In this document: positions 32,143 through 40,041 of the stretch, piece by piece
Layout of the letters: each line of letters opens with the position of its first letter
How positions within the stretch are numbered: the first letter of the stretch is position 1
Assembly (NCBI RefSeq): GCF_004364345.1
Contig: NZ_SOCA01000003.1
Span: 496,001-560,000, forward strand
DNA from: Prosthecobacter fusiformis
GTDB lineage: Bacteria; Verrucomicrobiota; Verrucomicrobiia; Verrucomicrobiales; Verrucomicrobiaceae
Direction: 5' to 3'
Length of the DNA: 64,000 nucleotides
The notes under the pieces: generated by a model
Seen by the model: only the letters and a program-made list of their open reading frames with translations
Told to the model about the DNA's origin: nothing
Databases searched by the model: none
Position numbers and translations under genes: made by a program

Positions 32143-32745
32143 TCAAGCCCCAACCCGCGCCCGGTTAAACACCCACCCGATCCCCGCCCCGAACCCCAGC
32201 CCGTAGAAAAGTCCCCAGGACAATTTCCCATACAGGATCAACTGCGCCCGGTCCACTTTTCCCAGGTCCCCCGCCTTTGCCAGCGGCACCCAGTAGTCAT
32301 ACATCGCCGAATCTCCGGCGAAATAGCCCGCCGTATGCAGGGCAAAGAGAGCCATCGCCGCCGCCATCCATCCCCGCGTGCTGCCCAGCATCTTCATGCC
32401 CACCCAGGTGAAAACGAGGCACCCCGCTGCCGCCCCCACCCATTCCCCCACGCGTCCCTTCAGTCCAAACCACGCCACACACCACACGACCGCATACAGC
32501 AAAAAAGCAGGCAAAAACGCTTTGTAAAATCGCCCCATGCCCGGTGCCAGCGGACTCAGCAGCACTCCAGATAGCGCCAAAAACACCCCCGCAATCGCCG
32601 CATACATCCCCAGTTCGCCTCCAAAATCGCGAAACGCCCCCGCCGCAAACCCCCACACGGAAAACGCCGCCACACTCACGATCGCAAAACCGATCGCCCC
32701 GTGGAGCACATCAAAAACTAGAGGGCGGCTGGAGGGTATAGGCAT
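32143..32745 (-). CDS. hypothetical membrane protein
   Basis: 200 residues with about five or six hydrophobic helices (for example GAIGFAIVSVAAFSVWGFAAG, MYAAIAGVFLALSGVLLSP, AFLLYAVVWCVAWFGL, AGCLVFTWVGMKML, LFYGLGFGAGIGWVF). No family recognised. It lies 37 bp upstream of leuD on the same strand. There are few charged residues and no enzymatic motif. Confidence 0.7.
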   Translation of the reverse strand: MPIPSSRPLVFDVLHGAIGFAIVSVAAFSVWGFAAGAFRDFGGELGMYAAIAGVFLALSGVLLSPLAPGMGRFYKAFLPAFLLYAVVWCVAWFGLKGRVGEWVGAAAGCLVFTWVGMKMLGSTRGWMAAAMALFALHTAGYFAGDSAMYDYWVPLAKAGDLGKVDRAQLILYGKLSWGLFYGLGFGAGIGWVFNRARVGA

Positions 32746-32894
32746 CTACTTCCAACGCTAGGGTGCCACGGATGTTTGCAATCTTTCCTATGACCTCAAG
32801 GCCCGGCTTCCCTGCGTCATCTTCATGGCATGCAGGGTGGTGGAGTCCGAATCCTGCGGGCGTAGCCAGGCTTCGCTACAAACTTAGTTAGGCT

Positions 32895-32912
32895 CATGCA
32901 ACGGTTTGCATG
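32895..32912. promoter_or_regulatory. LacI-type operator palindrome upstream of the Nit1 cluster
   Basis: CATGCAACGGTTTGCATG has perfect 7-bp arms around CGGT. Its core TGCAACGGTTTGCA fits the LacI-family pattern TGnAAnCGnTTnCA except for one central base. It lies 124 bp before the first cluster gene; a LacI regulator is encoded at the other end of the cluster. The rest of the 290-bp gap (32746-33035) holds no gene that I can see. Confidence 0.5.
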
Positions 32913-33035
32913 AATCTCGCGCCTTCCTCCAGAACTTGGCACGGGCCATGGCACCCCCAGTGCTTAAAAAGCTCTCATGCACCGGCTTCTGCTGGCTGCC
33001 ATTCACCTCGTCTTAACATCCATCAAAACACGACT

Positions 33036-33518
33036 ATGCCTGAAGTAACCCACCCCGCACACAAGGACGGCGACATCCTCGTCAACTATGAAGAGAAAGT
33101 CTTCGAAGACGTGAAGGCCAATCCGGGGGAAAAAGCCCTGGTCACCTTCCACGGTGTCGCCCATGAAGGCTCCATCGGCCTCGTCAATACCCTCGTCGCC
33201 ACACGCCTCCTGCGTAAAGGTTACGAGACCTCCATCCTGCTCTATGGCCCGGGCGTCACCATGGGTTTCCAAAAAGGTTTCCCCACCTTGGGTGACGAGG
33301 CCTTCCCCGGTCACCTCCTGGTGAACAAGCGCCTTGCCCAGTTCATGGCTGAGGGTGGCAAGATCTACGCCTGCCGTTTCTCCACCCAGGCACTCTATGG
33401 ACAGACGGAAAAGGCCTTCATCCCCGGCATCATCCCCATCAATCCTCTGGACGTTCTGGACATCAATCTCATCCACGGCCGCGCCGGTGCCGTGGTCATC
33501 CATTCCTGGAATCTCTAA
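33036..33518 (+). CDS. MSMEG_0572/Sll0783-family nitrogen starvation response protein
   Basis: 160 residues from ATG 33036; the frame extends upstream but [28 protein letters not shown] is the expected start. Conserved segments are [29 protein letters not shown] and the DsrE-like fold pattern with [29 protein letters not shown] at the end. This is the first gene of the conserved Nit1 cluster (Sll0783-0788 in Synechocystis, MSMEG_0565-0572 in mycobacteria). Its molecular activity is unknown. The cluster has been linked to nitrogen starvation and, in Pseudomonas, to cyanide assimilation (known literature, not shown here). Confidence 0.88.
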
Positions 33519-33531
33519 CCGCCCCTTATTT

Positions 33532-34560
33532 ATGGCGACGATCCGAGCAGCCGCGGTGCAGATTGCACCGGACCTGACAAGTGCCGAAGGCACGGTGGAC
33601 CGCATCTGCCGGGCAGTGGCTGATGCCGCCGCCAAGGGCGTGGAGATCGCCGTCTTCCCGGAGACCTTTGTCCCCTACTACCCCTACTTCAGTTTCGTGG
33701 AGCCGCCGGTCAGCGCCGGTCGCGAGCACCTGCGGCTCTACGAAAATGCGGTGGAGATCCCCGGCTGGATTCCTGAGGTATTCAGCCAGCAGGCGTTGAA
33801 GCACAGCATGGTCTTGGTGATCGGGGTGAACGAGCGCGAGCACGGTTCCCTCTACAATACCCAGCTCATCTTCGATGCCGATGGCACCCTGGCGCTGAAG
33901 CGGCGTAAAATCACACCTACCTATCACGAGCGCATGATCTGGGGTCAGGGGGATGGCTCAGGACTCAAAGTGGTGGAGACGGAGGTCGGGCGCGTCGGTG
34001 CCCTCGCCTGCTGGGAGCATTACAATCCGCTCGCCCGCTTCAGCCTCATGGCCCAGCACGAGCAGATTCACTGCGCCCAGTTTCCCGGCAGCATGGTCGG
34101 CCCCATTTTCCGGGACCAGATTGAGGTCACCATTAAACATCACGCCCTGGAGTCCGGCTGTTTTGTCGTCAACTCCACCGGCTGGCTTACCGATGAGCAG
34201 ATCGTCTCCATCACGGGTGATCCGAAGATGCAGAAGGCCCTGCGCGGTGGCTGCTACACGGCCATTATTTCTCCCGAAGGTGTGCCACTATGTGAACCCA
34301 TCACGGAGGGTGAAGGCATGGCCATTGCCGACCTCGACTTCGCCCTCATCACCAAACGCAAACGCATGATGGACAGCGTCGGCCATTACTCCCGGCCGGA
34401 CATTTTCACCCTGCATCAAAACTTGGAGGCCAACCAGCAAACCTCATCCAACGGAGCCGCCATGGATTCCGAAATCATTTGGCCTAACACTCAATTCAAC
34501 AACGCTCATGATCACTCTCGAGACCGCCTTGGTCAGCCGGAAGCAATGGCTGCTGTCTGA
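33532..34560 (+). CDS. Nit1-type nitrilase
   Basis: 342 residues. The Glu-Lys-Cys catalytic triad is visible: Glu44 in VFPETF, Lys126 in [12 protein letters not shown] and Cys160 in [15 protein letters not shown]. The length and the FIAIPGSM-like [11 protein letters not shown] segment fit the Nit6803-like nitrilases that always accompany this cluster. These enzymes hydrolyse nitriles to carboxylic acids and ammonia; the physiological nitrile is not established. The gene starts 13 bp after the MSMEG_0572-like stop, and its last 53 bp overlap the radical SAM gene, indicating a tight operon. Confidence 0.93.
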
Positions 34561-35641
34561 ACTGCAATCCCTCGGCCTGCGCATGCTGGATGAGGCCTCA
34601 TCTGCCTCCAGTCGGCGTGGCGGCGCAGGCCCCAGCGACCACAAGGCCGTGGCCGTCATGGGTACCACCATCATGGTGCCTGTGCATACCCGGCCCGCCC
34701 ATCACTCACCTTTCACCGCCTCGGTTCCCGGCACAGATGGCCGGGCCATGCTATATCGGGATGGCGAGCCGGAATCCCCCATCGTCTTTCCGCGTCAGCC
34801 GCACTTTTATTCCATGTCCACGGCGGATGACATTCCGTATTGGAAGATCGCGCAGTTGCACTCTCACAACGTGCTGGCCACCACCGTTCTGCAGACCTGC
34901 ATCCGTTATGGCAATAGCGCCACCAAATGCCAGTTCTGCGCCATTGGCGAATCTCTGAAAGGGGATCGCACCATTGCCCGCAAGACTCCTGAGCAGCTTG
35001 CCGAAGTCGCCGCCGCCGCGCAGCGTTATGATGGTATTGAGCAGGTCGTCCTCACCACCGGCACTCCGCCCACGGAAGACCGGGGCGCGGCTGTCCTCGT
35101 GGATGTCGCCCGCGCCATCAAGCTCCGCACGGGCCTGGCCATTCAGGCGCAGTGTGAGCCACCTGCTGATTTCATCTGGTTTAAGCATCTGCATGAAGCC
35201 GGCGTGGATTCCCTGGGCATGCACCTGGAGGCTTGGGATGAGGACGTCCGCGCTCGCATCATGCCGGGCAAGGCCCAGGTACCCGTGTCTTATTATCTCA
35301 AAGCCTTCAAGGCTGCCGTCGCCATCTTTGGCCGCGCCCAGGTCAGCACTTATCTTCTGGCTGGCCTTGGCGATACTCGCGAAGGTTTACTGGATGCCTG
35401 CCATCAGCTCATCCAGCTCGGGGTCTATCCCTTTGTTGTGCCCTTTGTGCCTATTGGCGGTACTCAGCTTGAAGGGCGGCAACCACCCTCGTCAGACTTC
35501 ATGCGCTCCATCCTTCAGCCACTGGGGGATATGCTCACCACGGCGGGAATGACCTCCGATACTGTCAAGGCTGGCTGCGCCAAATGCGGTGCCTGCTCCT
35601 CCCTTTCCTCCTTCGAAAAACAATCCCCCTGCGCCGCCTGA
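34508..35641 (+). CDS. MSMEG_0568-family radical SAM protein
   Basis: 377 residues. Cys131, Cys141 and Cys144 ([18 protein letters not shown]) form a CX9CX2C motif instead of the canonical CX3CX2[15 protein letters not shown] and the following barrel strands ([34 protein letters not shown]) match a radical SAM TIM barrel. A CX2CX2C group at residues 357-363 near the C-terminus could bind an auxiliary iron-sulfur cluster. The start ATG is inside the nitrilase gene. The reaction is unknown; the enzyme is a fixed member of the Nit1 cluster. Confidence 0.88.
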
Positions 35642-35643
35642 CC

Positions 35644-35919
35644 ATGCCCGCCGTCCATTACATCGTTGAACTTCCCGATGGCGAAAAACGCCAATGCTAC
35701 TCACCCTCCACCGTCATTCATGAGCACTTCAAATCCGGTGATGCCATGCCCATGAGCGAGTTCATCCAGCGCAGCCGCACTGCCTTGAATGCTGCCAGTG
35801 ACCGTGTCCGTCAGCGTTTCGGTTTCGCCTGCTCCTCCGCCATGGATCAGCTTAGCGAAATCGAAAGCTGGGGCCGCTCTTATCCTGCCGATCAAACCGT
35901 CCGCATCCTTAAACTTTAG
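35644..35919 (+). CDS. MSMEG_0570-family nitrogen starvation response protein
   Basis: 91 residues starting two bases after the radical SAM stop. MPAVHYIVELPDGEKRQCYSPSTVIHEHF and GDAMPMSEFIQRSRTALNAASDRVRQRFGF are typical of this small cluster-specific family. No catalytic motif is known. Longer starts upstream overlap the radical SAM gene and look non-coding in this frame. Confidence 0.87.
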   Translation: MPAVHYIVELPDGEKRQCYSPSTVIHEHFKSGDAMPMSEFIQRSRTALNAASDRVRQRFGFACSSAMDQLSEIESWGRSYPADQTVRILKL

Positions 35920-35928
35920 CATCTCTTC

Positions 35929-37218
35929 ATGGAAACACATTATCCAGTCATCATCATTGGCGGCGGCCAGGCCGGACTCTCCATGAGTTTTTGCCTCAAG
36001 GAAAAAGGCATCGCCCATCTCGTCTTCGAAAAAAACCGTCTCGCGGAATCCTGGCGCAGTAAGCGCTGGGACTCCTTCTGCCTCGTCACGCCTAACTGGC
36101 AGTGTGCTCTCCCTGGTTTTGACTACGCCGGTGATGATCCCAAAGGCTTCATGGTTAAGGACCAGATCGTCGAATACATCGAGTCCTACGCTCGCTCCTT
36201 TGATCCGCCTTTGAAAGAGGGTGTCAATGTCTGGCGCATGCGCCGCAACAGCAGCGGCGTGTTTGAGATCACCACCGACATCGGTGATTTCACCGCAGAT
36301 CAGGTGGTCGTCGCAACGGGCGGTTATCAGACCTCGCACCTGCCTCGCATGGCGGAACGCTTCCCCTCCAGCATCACGCAACTGCACTCCTCAAACTATA
36401 AAAATGCAGCAGCCCTTCCCCCTGGCGAAGTGCTTGTCGTCGGCACCGGCCAGTCCGGTTGCCAGATCGCCGAAGACCTGCACCTGGCAGGCCGACGCGT
36501 CCACCTCTGCGTCGGTGGTGCGCCGCGCACCGCTCGTCGCTATCGTGGCAAGGACGTCGTCGAATGGCTGGCCGACATGGGCTATTATGACATGCCCATC
36601 CATGAGCATCCCAAAAAGGACATGGTCCGCTCCAAGGCCAATCATTATGTTACGGGTCGGGATGGTGGCCGCGATATTGACCTCCGCCGCTTCGCCCTGG
36701 AAGGCATGCAGCTTTACGGCCGCCTGAAGGAGGTTACCGGCAGCACTCTCTCCTTTGCCGATGACCTGAAGCAGAACCTGGATCAGGCCGACAATGTGTC
36801 CGAAAGCATCAAGACAACGATAGATAAATTCATCGCCTCAAAAGGCATCGAGGCCCCTCAGGAAGATCGTTACATTCCTCTCTGGCAGCCTGAAGACCGG
36901 CCAGCCACGTTGGATTATTCTCAGTCTGGCATCACCAGCATCACCAGCATCATCTGGAGCATGGGCTACGGCACGGACTACCGCTGGATCGAAATTCCCA
37001 TCTTCGATGGTAAAGGTTATCCCAACCATGATCGCGGTGTCACTAGTGTGCCCGGAGTCTATTTCATCGGCTTGCCCTGGCAATACACCTGGGGCAGCGG
37101 CCGCTTCTCCGGCGTCGCTCAAGATGCCCGTTTCCTCGCCAACTGCATCGAGTCGCGGCACGCCACTCCTAAGGTCGCCGCTGGCCAGATTTTAAACATG
37201 TGGGCACTCGGCTCATAG
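35929..37218 (+). CDS. MSMEG_0569-family flavin-dependent oxidoreductase
   Basis: 429 residues. The N-terminal dinucleotide-binding motif is IIIGGGQAGLSMSFCLKEKGI. A second GxGxSG site, VVGTGQSGCQIAEDL, near residue 170 would bind NAD(P)H, as in flavin-containing monooxygenase-like enzymes. GVYFIGLPWQYTWGSGRFSGVAQDARFLA closes the FAD domain. It starts nine bases after the MSMEG_0570-like gene. Within the cluster it is the likely oxidant in a pathway involving the nitrilase and radical SAM enzymes; the substrate is unknown. Confidence 0.9.
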   Translation: METHYPVIIIGGGQAGLSMSFCLKEKGIAHLVFEKNRLAESWRSKRWDSFCLVTPNWQCALPGFDYAGDDPKGFMVKDQIVEYIESYARSFDPPLKEGVNVWRMRRNSSGVFEITTDIGDFTADQVVVATGGYQTSHLPRMAERFPSSITQLHSSNYKNAAALPPGEVLVVGTGQSGCQIAEDLHLAGRRVHLCVGGAPRTARRYRGKDVVEWLADMGYYDMPIHEHPKKDMVRSKANHYVTGRDGGRDIDLRRFALEGMQLYGRLKEVTGSTLSFADDLKQNLDQADNVSESIKTTIDKFIASKGIEAPQEDRYIPLWQPEDRPATLDYSQSGITSITSIIWSMGYGTDYRWIEIPIFDGKGYPNHDRGVTSVPGVYFIGLPWQYTWGSGRFSGVAQDARFLANCIESRHATPKVAAGQILNMWALGS

Positions 37219-37256
37219 CTCTCTTGGCACGTCTTCTGCAACCCGTCATCCTCATC

Positions 37257-37826
37257 ATGCTTTTTGAAACTTACCCTCCTTTCCGTCAGCGTGACTTCGT
37301 CTTTAAGATCGCCACCACCCCGAGCGAACTCGCTGGTTACTGGGCTTTGCGCAAAGCTGTATTTTGTGAGGAGCAACATGTCTTCCATGATGGCGATGAC
37401 CGCGATGCACTCGATGAACACGGCATCCCCATCATCTGTGCCACTCTCGTGGCTGGTATGGTGGATGAGGTCATCGGCACCGTCCGCATTGATGAACGTG
37501 AGCCTCGTCTTTGGTATGGCAGCCGCCTCTGTGTGGATCGCGAATACCGCCGCCTCACTGAAATGAGCACCAGTGTCAGCGTCCGCAGCCACCAGCCTGT
37601 TTATCGCGGTTTCGGTGCCATCGGCGCAGGCCTCATCTACAAGGCCGTATCCACGGCCAACAAAATAGGCTGTGATAAATTTCTGGCCGATGTTCAGGAA
37701 CAAAACGCCAGATTCTTCCAGCGCCTCCACTGGCAGCGCCTCGGCGAGCGCCAACTCCACGGACGTCTCCACGTCCACATGCAAGCCGAAATGGCCCACT
37801 ACCCACCCGCCGCCATGGTCGCCTGA
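37257..37826 (+). CDS. MSMEG_0567/Sll0786-family N-acetyltransferase
   Basis: 189 residues from ATG 37257, 38 bp after the oxidoreductase stop; the frame extends upstream to 37200 but that overlaps the oxidoreductase gene. FKIATTPSELAGYWALRKAVFCEEQHVF and the acetyl-CoA-binding part VYRGFGAIGAGLIYKAV are GNAT features. NARFFQRLHWQRLGERQLHGRLHVHMQAEM is the conserved ending. In mycobacteria this domain is fused to the AIR-synthase-like protein; here the two are separate genes, as in Synechocystis. Confidence 0.87.
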   Translation: MLFETYPPFRQRDFVFKIATTPSELAGYWALRKAVFCEEQHVFHDGDDRDALDEHGIPIICATLVAGMVDEVIGTVRIDEREPRLWYGSRLCVDREYRRLTEMSTSVSVRSHQPVYRGFGAIGAGLIYKAVSTANKIGCDKFLADVQEQNARFFQRLHWQRLGERQLHGRLHVHMQAEMAHYPPAAMVA

Positions 37827-38087: not shown

Positions 38088-39059
38088 ATGCCTGCCCTCT
38101 CCCCGCTGCTGCAGGAACTCCGCGACCACCCCAACATCGCTGAAAAACTTCGGATCGCCGCCGCCTACAGCCCTGCCTTAGAGGTCGCAGGCGGCATCGA
38201 AATCGGTGACGACGCCGCAGCCATTCCCGATGGCGATGGTTTCCTCCTCTTCGCCGCCGAAGGCATGATGGAAGGTTTCATCGAGATGGACCCCTGGTTC
38301 GCCGGATACTGCGCCGTCATGGTGAATCTCAGCGACATCGCCGCCATGGGCGGAGCACCCGTCGCCATTGTTGATGTGCTGTGGGCGCATCCAGATTCGA
38401 CGATGGCCACCGAGATTTGGTCCGGTATGCGCGCCGCTTCCACAGCTTACGGTGTGCCCATTGTCGGCGGCCACACCACCCGCTTCCCCATTGAGCGCAC
38501 GCCCTTGCTTGCCGCCGCCGTCATGGGAAAAGCCACACGGTTGATCACCAGCTTTGATGCCCAGCCTGGGGATACCCTCCTCATGGCCGTGGACCTGCGC
38601 GGTGCTTATCGGGGCGAAGGCACCTTCTTTTGGAATGCCAGTGTGGGTTCTCCACCCGATCGCTTGCGCAGTGACCTCTTACTGCTCAAAGAACTCGCCG
38701 ATGCCAGCCTCGTCACCTCGGGGAAAGACATCAGCAATGGCGGCCTTTTCGGTACCCTCGCCATGCTTTTGGCCACCTCCGGTTGTGGTGCTCAGGTGGA
38801 CCTGGACTCCCTTCCCATGCCGCCGGATGTGGACTTGAAACGGTGGCTCCTTTCTTTCCCCAGTTATGGTTATGTCCTGACAGCCACGCCGGAAAAAGCC
38901 GACGACGTCATGACCCTGTTCTCGCATCACGGCATCACCTGCGCGGCCATCGGCAGCATCACCGGGACACACGCTTTGGAGATTTCTTCCCAGGACGGGC
39001 GGGAGGTGTTTGCGCAGATCGCACCGGCAGCGACGGCCCGTCCTTCCAGGAGCCAGTGA
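38088..39059 (+). CDS. Sll0787-family AIR-synthase-like protein
   Basis: 323 residues. GIEIGDDAAAIPDG, CAVMVNLSDIAAMGGAPVAIVDVLW and VGGHTTRFP match the ATP-binding PurM/SelD-like N-terminal fold. TSGKDISNGGLFGTLAMLL matches the C-terminal AIRS domain. It is the last gene of the Nit1 cluster. AIRS-fold proteins use ATP to activate carboxyl or amide groups, which would fit a ligase or kinase role, but the reaction is unknown. Its last 101 bp overlap the convergent LacI gene. It is separated from the GNAT gene by 261 bp with duplicated hairpins, so it may have its own promoter. Confidence 0.87.
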   Translation: MPALSPLLQELRDHPNIAEKLRIAAAYSPALEVAGGIEIGDDAAAIPDGDGFLLFAAEGMMEGFIEMDPWFAGYCAVMVNLSDIAAMGGAPVAIVDVLWAHPDSTMATEIWSGMRAASTAYGVPIVGGHTTRFPIERTPLLAAAVMGKATRLITSFDAQPGDTLLMAVDLRGAYRGEGTFFWNASVGSPPDRLRSDLLLLKELADASLVTSGKDISNGGLFGTLAMLLATSGCGAQVDLDSLPMPPDVDLKRWLLSFPSYGYVLTATPEKADDVMTLFSHHGITCAAIGSITGTHALEISSQDGREVFAQIAPAATARPSRSQ

Positions 39060-40041
39060 TCAAAACATCACGCGGATGTTCCGGGATGCCCCGGTCATGC
39101 ATGTGCATTTTCTGCACCAGCAAATCCACCGCCGCAGCCCCCACCCGGTCCAGATTCCCGTCAATGCCGGCCATCTTTTTCCTCTCGGCTTCCGTGCCAA
39201 AGAGATAGGCCACTCCAATATCCTTCGGCACCTTCAGTCTGAGCCGCCCCAGCAGTTCCAGAATGTCGATTTTATACACCAGCAGGGCGTCAGGTTCATG
39301 CTGTTCCATCCATTCACGGAATTCAGCCATATTCACCCCATCAGCTTCCGTCATCAGGGGCGGGCATTGTTCCTCAGGCGGGCGCTGCCACTGTTCATTC
39401 AGAGCTGCCGCCGACCATTGCCCCCCCACAATGGTATTGTTCCGCACGGGGGCGATCAACGCAGGCCGTCGGTACCCTAAAGAGCGCATTTTTTCAAAGG
39501 CCAGATTCACATTGAAAAAGCCATGCAATTGCACCCGGTCCACCGGTAATTGACGAAAGTAGGTGCTCAAACCAACCACACAAAAGTCCCCCACATCGAG
39601 GGTTGTGGGCTGGTCATCCCGTTCGGAAAATCCCAGGATGAGTCCCCGTATACCCCGCGTGATCAGCACCCGCCGCAGGTGTTCCGCATCCCCTTTGGCC
39701 GGGCCGAGGGAGAATACCTCAATCTGATACCCAAGCTGCTGCGCACGTCTTTGCAGTCCTTTTAGATACCAGAGGCAGACATCTTTTTTCTTCCAGGCTT
39801 CATCCGCCACATTCGTGATCAGGGCCAGCGTCTCTCCATGCGGATCCAGCTTCCGCCGTTTTTGGGTCATCAACGCCTGCACCAATGGATTCGGTGCATA
39901 CCTCAGCTTAGCCGCGGCAGCTTTGACACGCTCGATAACCGGTGGTGAAATCCGCGGATCATCCCTCAGCGCCCGCGAAACCGTCGCCCCGGATACCCCG
40001 GCCGCCTTTGCCACATCTTGGAGGGTTACGGATCGGTCCAT
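38959..40041 (-). CDS. LacI-family transcriptional regulator
   Basis: 360 residues. The N-terminal HTH is VTLQDVAKAAGVSGATVSRAL, with the hinge helix around SPPVIERVKAAAAKLRYAPNPLVQAL. The periplasmic-binding-protein-like core follows (LALITNVADEAWKK, RGLILGFSERDD, RRPALIAPVRNN). The C-terminal tail after VLITGSWKDGP is basic and overlaps the end of the AIR-synthase gene on the other strand. It may control the Nit1 cluster through the palindrome at 32895. Effectors cannot be read from the sequence, and it could instead regulate distant sugar genes. Confidence 0.9.
   Translation of the reverse strand: MDRSVTLQDVAKAAGVSGATVSRALRDDPRISPPVIERVKAAAAKLRYAPNPLVQALMTQKRRKLDPHGETLALITNVADEAWKKKDVCLWYLKGLQRRAQQLGYQIEVFSLGPAKGDAEHLRRVLITRGIRGLILGFSERDDQPTTLDVGDFCVVGLSTYFRQLPVDRVQLHGFFNVNLAFEKMRSLGYRRPALIAPVRNNTIVGGQWSAAALNEQWQRPPEEQCPPLMTEADGVNMAEFREWMEQHEPDALLVYKIDILELLGRLRLKVPKDIGVAYLFGTEAERKKMAGIDGNLDRVGAAAVDLLVQKMHMHDRGIPEHPRDVLITGSWKDGPSLPVRSAQTPPARPGKKSPKRVSR

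Follow-up and report, generated by a model that had tools for sequence, protein, structure and literature searches.

A conserved palindrome as candidate LacI-family operator upstream of a sigma54-type promoter at the Nit1C cluster of Prosthecobacter fusiformis

INTRODUCTION

The Nit1C gene cluster serves the use of cyanide and nitriles as nitrogen sources in Pseudomonas (PMC11049912). In the parts of that source dealing with regulation, nit1C is controlled by NitA, a sigma54-dependent regulator of the Fis family that is encoded divergently from the cluster. The clusters of Verrucomicrobiales described here share the genes and the sigma54-type control; in contrast to Pseudomonas, a LacI-family gene lies near them or diverges from them, and an activator specific to the cluster was not seen. 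LacI is also mentioned with Nit1C in PMC6368324, as an unrelated neighbour.

Two further systems are close to the arrangement reported here. The local LacI operators of RegPrecise, as presented in portions of PMC4052901, are alike in being even palindromes about 140-120 bp before a start codon, with one local target, the regulator gene beside the site and G at NT-6 in both half-sites. The present locus differs from them in serving a nitrile/cyanide cluster instead of sugar use, in a central CpG displaced by one base, in its sigma54-type promoter with rigid spacing, and in that no autoregulatory site was seen in its own family. The other system is the sigma54-dependent lev operon of Bacillus subtilis, at which the LacI-family protein CcpA also acts upstream of a sigma54 promoter (PMC3463425, PMC10864463). 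According to excerpts of these sources, CcpA is a global sugar regulator whose levD site is listed at -45, LevR binds at -125, and CcpA is said to prevent a productive interaction between LevR and RNA polymerase. In contrast, the locus studied here has a dedicated regulator, a site centred at about -71.5 and no recognisable activator site.

No earlier report of a LacI operator at Nit1C was found in searches of the open-licence literature. The parts are of known kinds, and their combination (a dedicated LacI protein, a nitrile/cyanide cluster, a sigma54 promoter and an invariant 46-bp geometry) was likewise not found in those searches.

RESULTS

The Nit1C cluster and its LacI gene

The window, that is, the whole 64,000-nt stretch of DNA analysed, contains a Nit1C cluster made up of the Nit6803 nitrilase and the MSMEG_0567-0572 / sll0783-0787 families, for which seven NCBIfam models scored above their cut-offs. 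The features are as follows.

32894-32913, forward strand: palindromic operator candidate, TCATGCAA-CGGT-TTGCATGA, kept in 16 of 16 related clusters
32949-32964, forward strand: sigma54-type -24/-12 promoter TGGCACCCCCAGTGCT, with GG at 32950-32951 and GC at 32962-32963
33036-33518, forward strand: MSMEG_0572/Sll0783 family protein (TIGR04044), first Nit1C gene, start ATG 33036 from the family profile and relatives
33532-34560, forward strand: Nit6803-family nitrilase (TIGR04048), 558.8 bits against a cut-off of 502.6
34508-35641, forward strand: MSMEG_0568 family radical SAM protein (TIGR04043, NCBIfam)
35638-35919, forward strand: MSMEG_0570 family protein (TIGR04042, NCBIfam)
35929-37218, forward strand: MSMEG_0569 family flavin-dependent oxidoreductase (TIGR04046, NCBIfam)
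37200-37826, forward strand: MSMEG_0567/Sll0786 family N-acetyltransferase (TIGR04045, NCBIfam)
38088-39059, forward strand: sll0787 family AIR synthase-like protein (TIGR04049, NCBIfam), last cluster gene
38959-40041, reverse strand: LacI-family regulator (PF00356, PF13377), proposed cognate of the operator, with an ortholog in cluster genomes

ATG 33036 was taken as the true start of the first gene because it is the nearest ATG before the beginning of the TIGR04044 profile and is the same in relatives. The apparent open reading frame from 32910, inside the palindrome, is not the gene, as the TIGR04044 profile matches it only from residue 44 onwards. The preliminary description had placed a LacI gene at the far end of the cluster, which was borne out: the reverse-strand gene encodes an HTH domain and a periplasmic-binding-protein-like domain, with PF00356 at 56.7 bits (cut-off, 27) and PF13377 at 30.5 bits (cut-off, 26.5). 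The sll0787-type gene and lacI are convergent and overlap at their 3' ends by 101 bp (38959-39059). The same overlap was observed in genome G035 and, in a shorter form, in G012, where both genes have moved together.

Palindrome upstream of the first Nit1C gene

An 18-mer palindrome had been reported at 32895-32912, and its perfect arms in fact reach one base further on each side, giving the 20-bp sequence TCATGCAACGGTTTGCATGA with arms TCATGCAA and TTGCATGA around the spacer CGGT. The 14-bp core, TGCAACGGTTTGCA (32897-32910), begins 139 bp before ATG 33036. It had also been claimed that the site departs from the LacI-family consensus at a single conserved position. This fit is correct, since TGCAACGGTTTGCA deviates from TGnAAnCGnTTnCA only at the central C among the fixed positions; as evidence the fit carries little force, because the relatives show 1 to 4 mismatches and do not keep CG at the dyad centre. 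In the window, three sites match TGnAAnCGnTTnCA with at most one mismatch.

The exact arms occur once in the 5.83-Mb genome. Perfect palindromes with 8-bp arms and spacers of 0 to 8 numbered 20 in the window, two of them with a spacer of 4. When the 291-bp intergenic region was simulated 2,000 times with a first-order Markov model, 0.5% (spacer 4) to 2.7% (spacers 0 to 8) of the copies contained a palindrome with 8-bp arms. Taken alone, the window therefore made only a thin and suggestive case for an operator. It is the retention of the palindrome in 16 of 16 related clusters that places it beyond chance.

The site is an even palindrome of two inverted half-sites, with all eight outer pairs matched in the window and five to eight of them in 13 of the 16 sites; three of eight are matched in G169, G163 and G103. 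The dyad centre is G/G or G/A in the 16 sites instead of CG, and in 15 of them a CpG is found displaced by one base to the left. A central CG is present in 1,173 of 1,251 even LacI-family motifs and is thus usual but not obligatory, according to portions of PMC4052901. A CG-centred dyad register, tried by eye, gained pairs in G169, G163 and G103 but lost them in the window's own family, and the 14-bp dyad was kept. In an Rfam search of 32700-33200, the sole match, to raiA, fell within the coding region and scored 12.8 bits, below the cut-off of 101.3, and an RNA element was therefore rejected for this interval.

Sigma54-type promoter at a fixed distance from the palindrome

The preliminary description of this promoter region had recognised the operator site and overlooked a sigma54-type promoter and its fixed spacing. 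The GG-N10-GC arrangement of the -24/-12 element was present in all 16 clusters, and TGGY-N8-TGCW was found downstream of the site in each of them (0.5 expected). Counted from the first base to the right of the dyad centre, the first G in the -24 element was exactly 46 bp away in all 16 clusters, whereas the distance from the core to the ATG varied from 119 to 195 bp. Information per column averaged 0.41 bits in the spacer, 1.47 bits in the site and 1.40 bits in the promoter, calculated from 13 representatives of the 16 sites after the near-duplicates G061, G064 and G065 were left out.

In addition, 386 genomes were scanned independently of the cluster for the core followed by the promoter at any gap from 25 to 52, and 18 places were found. 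Fifteen were cluster promoters, all with a gap of 38, which equals the 46-bp distance; the other three were unrelated places with gaps of 26, 37 and 52. The sixteenth cluster, in G151, has a variant core and was missed by the scan pattern.

A second TGGCAC lies at 32937-32942, 12 bp upstream of the -24 element, and is possibly a weaker overlapping promoter. Copies of TGGC were observed upstream in most members of the family, at other distances in G012, G067 and G151.

Co-occurrence of the cluster, LacI and the site

The Nit1C cluster (TIGR04044 above cut-off) was found in 16 of 386 genomes of the order, and a LacI ortholog (E ≤ 1e-60) in the same 16 and no others, with up to five best candidates scored per genome. 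G272 was left out of the cluster count, its TIGR04044 score being below the cut-off, and a search of the phylum (387 genomes) revealed no cluster outside the order. Within the window's own family, the 11 of 68 genomes with the cluster are the same 11 that carry the LacI ortholog. The own-family orthologs are 59 to 100% identical, compared with 34% for the next-best LacI protein, and those of the five clusters outside the family show 42 to 46% identity.

Absence of the palindrome from relatives with the same gene pair would have told against a LacI operator. The site was present in all 16 clusters with a LacI ortholog, at 0 to 2 mismatches to TGCAACGATTTGCA, while the left neighbours of the cluster differ among them. 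With the 17-mer TGCAACGATTTGCATGA, a search of 20 genomes at 0 or 1 mismatch gave five places, all of them cluster promoters; at up to two mismatches it gave 23 places, of which 11 were cluster promoters.

The site stays with the cluster promoter also where lacI is elsewhere. Among the five more distant clusters, four (G169, G151, G163 and G286) have a divergent, adjacent lacI, with 25, 36, 26 and 25 bp, respectively, between its start codon and the site. In G103, lacI lies further upstream and the site is still at the cluster promoter. The same is true of G012, with lacI and the sll0787 gene on another contig, and of G067, with lacI about 15 kb away. For G014 and G038, a different short contig carries lacI.

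Autoregulation of lacI was rejected as a general rule: in the 11 own-family genomes, no convincing site was found before lacI, the best upstream scores reaching 9.2, against 18 to 24.6 for real sites and random 95% and 99% points of 8.3 and 12.5. A second operator before the detached sll0787 gene of G012 was not convincing either (best score, 9.2 over a longer stretch). Two weaker motif matches, scoring 15.5 and 12.2, were observed near the main site in G151 (L062 5997-6147).

Features of the LacI protein

The recognition helix contains TVSR or TISR in 16 of 16 LacI orthologs, preceded by Ala or Ser in all 16, while Met stands at this place in 15 of 16 paralogs compared. In the LacI code, as set out in part of PMC2978694, the arginine at AA-20 pairs with G at NT-6, and AA-15 together with AA-16 sets NT-5 and NT-4. 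Among the 13 representatives, G at NT-6 and C at NT-5 were invariant in both half-sites, as was A at NT-4 in the left half. The invariant G at the position read by the TVSR/TISR arginine, which all 16 proteins have, agrees with this code. The hinge leucine is also invariant, but Val or Ile takes the place of the hinge alanine in every one of the 16 orthologs. Portions of PMC2978694 link the hinge alanine to the central CG, and the Val/Ile replacement may go with the displaced CpG.

The preliminary description had spoken of a sugar-type regulator. This proved to be an assumption, since the protein belongs to a separate orthologous group confined, among 386 genomes, to those with the cluster, and lacks an acidic pocket residue. 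The Asp of the 'HDW' motif contacts sugars in LacI proteins. The residue aligned with this Asp, which most paralogs have, is non-acidic in 16 of 16 orthologs. This absence, together with the confinement of the group to cluster genomes, makes a non-sugar effector plausible, as a lead only.

Clusters outside the phylum

Eighty nitrilase loci from named genomes were compared, 77 of them outside Verrucomicrobia. Within the DNA of these 77 loci, no LacI ortholog was found at E ≤ 1e-6. An MSMEG_0572 match was present in 78 of the 80 loci, and upstream regions were usable for 74 of the 77; L075 and L103 were left out for want of an MSMEG_0572 match, and L129 because its upstream DNA was short. The site was absent, at up to two mismatches, from all 74 upstream regions. 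A sigma54-type element was present in 24 of 54 noncyanobacterial upstream regions (1.7 expected) and in none of 20 cyanobacterial ones. Because the promoter element occurs there without the palindrome, it is the promoter that belongs to the cluster more widely, and the palindrome that goes with LacI. These comparisons, with the site in 16 of 16 LacI-bearing clusters and 0 of 74 regions outside the phylum, support the reading as a LacI operator.

rpoN and enhancer-binding proteins

An rpoN gene was found in 15 of the 16 cluster genomes and in both clusterless genomes. G163 (96% complete) gave no rpoN (PF04552) match, though its cluster keeps the sigma54-type element; this either counts against the sigma54 reading or reflects an assembly gap. 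In G000, seven strong enhancer-binding proteins were identified, and reciprocal best hits were obtained for seven of seven in clusterless G013 and six of seven in clusterless G046. Across the five genomes compared, none of the enhancer-binding proteins was seen to be confined to cluster genomes. A regular-expression scan of the 80 loci for enhancer-binding proteins, with a pattern that had no positive control, returned none and was given no weight.

Upstream of the promoter, no conserved element besides the palindrome and no recognisable distal activator site were found. The best 10-mer shared upstream of the site by eight family sequences had a mismatch sum of 15, compared with 14 to 16 in Markov controls.

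Two rpoN genes were observed in G000 (L147; G000:C5:132502-132975 and G000:C5:133496-133987); a gene for an enhancer-binding protein lies about 0.5 kb from the second. G014, G013 and G046 likewise have a second rpoN no more than about 3 kb from a gene of this type.

DISCUSSION

We put the probability at roughly three in four that the palindrome serves as operator for a local LacI-family regulator dedicated to the Nit1C cluster, probably a repressor acting at its sigma54 promoter, as judged from sequence comparison. The LacI protein encoded at 38959-40041 would be this regulator and would bind the palindrome, and the cluster would be transcribed from the promoter at 32949-32964. From the usual sigma54 spacing, transcription is predicted to start near 32975. 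A LacI dimer would then occupy about -81 to -62, centred at -71.5, on a fixed helix face relative to the sigma54 holoenzyme. Because site and promoter do not overlap, simple occlusion is not the mechanism. Most likely, bound LacI would hinder the access of an enhancer-binding protein to the closed complex and would be released by a small molecule related to the cluster, such as a nitrile, a 2-hydroxynitrile or a product. The cluster would respond to nitrogen status by way of a general enhancer-binding protein and to the presence of substrate by way of LacI. LacI would also control itself in two further families of the order, where lacI is mostly divergent and shares the site.

LacI-family proteins mostly repress, which makes repression the likelier direction. 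The precedent of CcpA at the lev operon, as far as parts of PMC3463425 describe it, points the same way. The displaced CpG and the poor symmetry in G169, G163 and G103 count against the operator reading. The spacing also counts against repression by quenching: quenching based on looping should tolerate shifts of 10 to 11 bp, according to part of PMC4740811, and the exact 46 bp is stricter than it would need.

Given this exact spacing and the lack of any further upstream element, a positive, architectural role of LacI is also conceivable. LacI could bind the site as a ligand-switched co-activator or DNA-bending factor, kinking the DNA 46 bp from the -24 element and aiding the enhancer-binding protein. 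The same distance in 16 of 16 clusters, despite a poorly conserved spacer (0.41 bits against 1.47 in the site) and other distances that vary, fits such a role, as does the absence of any other conserved upstream element; moreover, lacI coding begins 25 to 36 bp upstream in four clusters and leaves no intergenic room for an enhancer. However, the prevalence of repressors in the family speaks against it, and a LacI protein with only HTH and periplasmic-binding-like domains cannot itself open the sigma54 complex. We consider this role unlikely. A specific form of it, which we regard as quite unlikely, is that LacI at -71.5 acts as a ligand-switched architectural partner of the promoter, either bending the DNA or contacting the holoenzyme, so that a general nitrogen-responsive activator lacking an enhancer site of its own would be able to act only in the appropriate ligand state. 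If true, an architectural LacI would replace NitA, the dedicated sigma54 regulator of Pseudomonas.

It is improbable that the palindrome is instead an upstream activating sequence for a sigma54 enhancer-binding protein, with LacI a mere neighbour. The palindrome is indeed the sole conserved element upstream of the sigma54 promoter, and the divergent regulator of Pseudomonas is a sigma54-dependent Fis-family protein in the parts of PMC11049912 that treat it. However, the site tracks LacI exactly and not the promoter: none of the 74 clusters examined outside the phylum has it, while the sigma54-type element is present in 24 of the 54 noncyanobacterial ones, which argues against a general activator site; nor was an enhancer-binding protein specific to cluster genomes seen in the five compared. 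That the palindrome arose by chance, or is instead a site of the divergent membrane-protein gene at 32143-32745, might be suggested by the 20 such palindromes in the window, but the site is kept in 16 of 16 clusters with differing left neighbours and the scan of 386 genomes also contradicts this explanation, which is extremely improbable.

The pairing of a probable LacI operator with a sigma54 nitrilase promoter is unusual. If the palindrome is the operator of the local LacI protein, the locus offers a small, testable system for the control of a sigma54 promoter from upstream by a LacI-family protein, and a clue to a non-sugar LacI effector. The cluster seems to keep its sigma54 promoter together with a LacI-type switch, at a distance unchanged across 16 genomes and three families.
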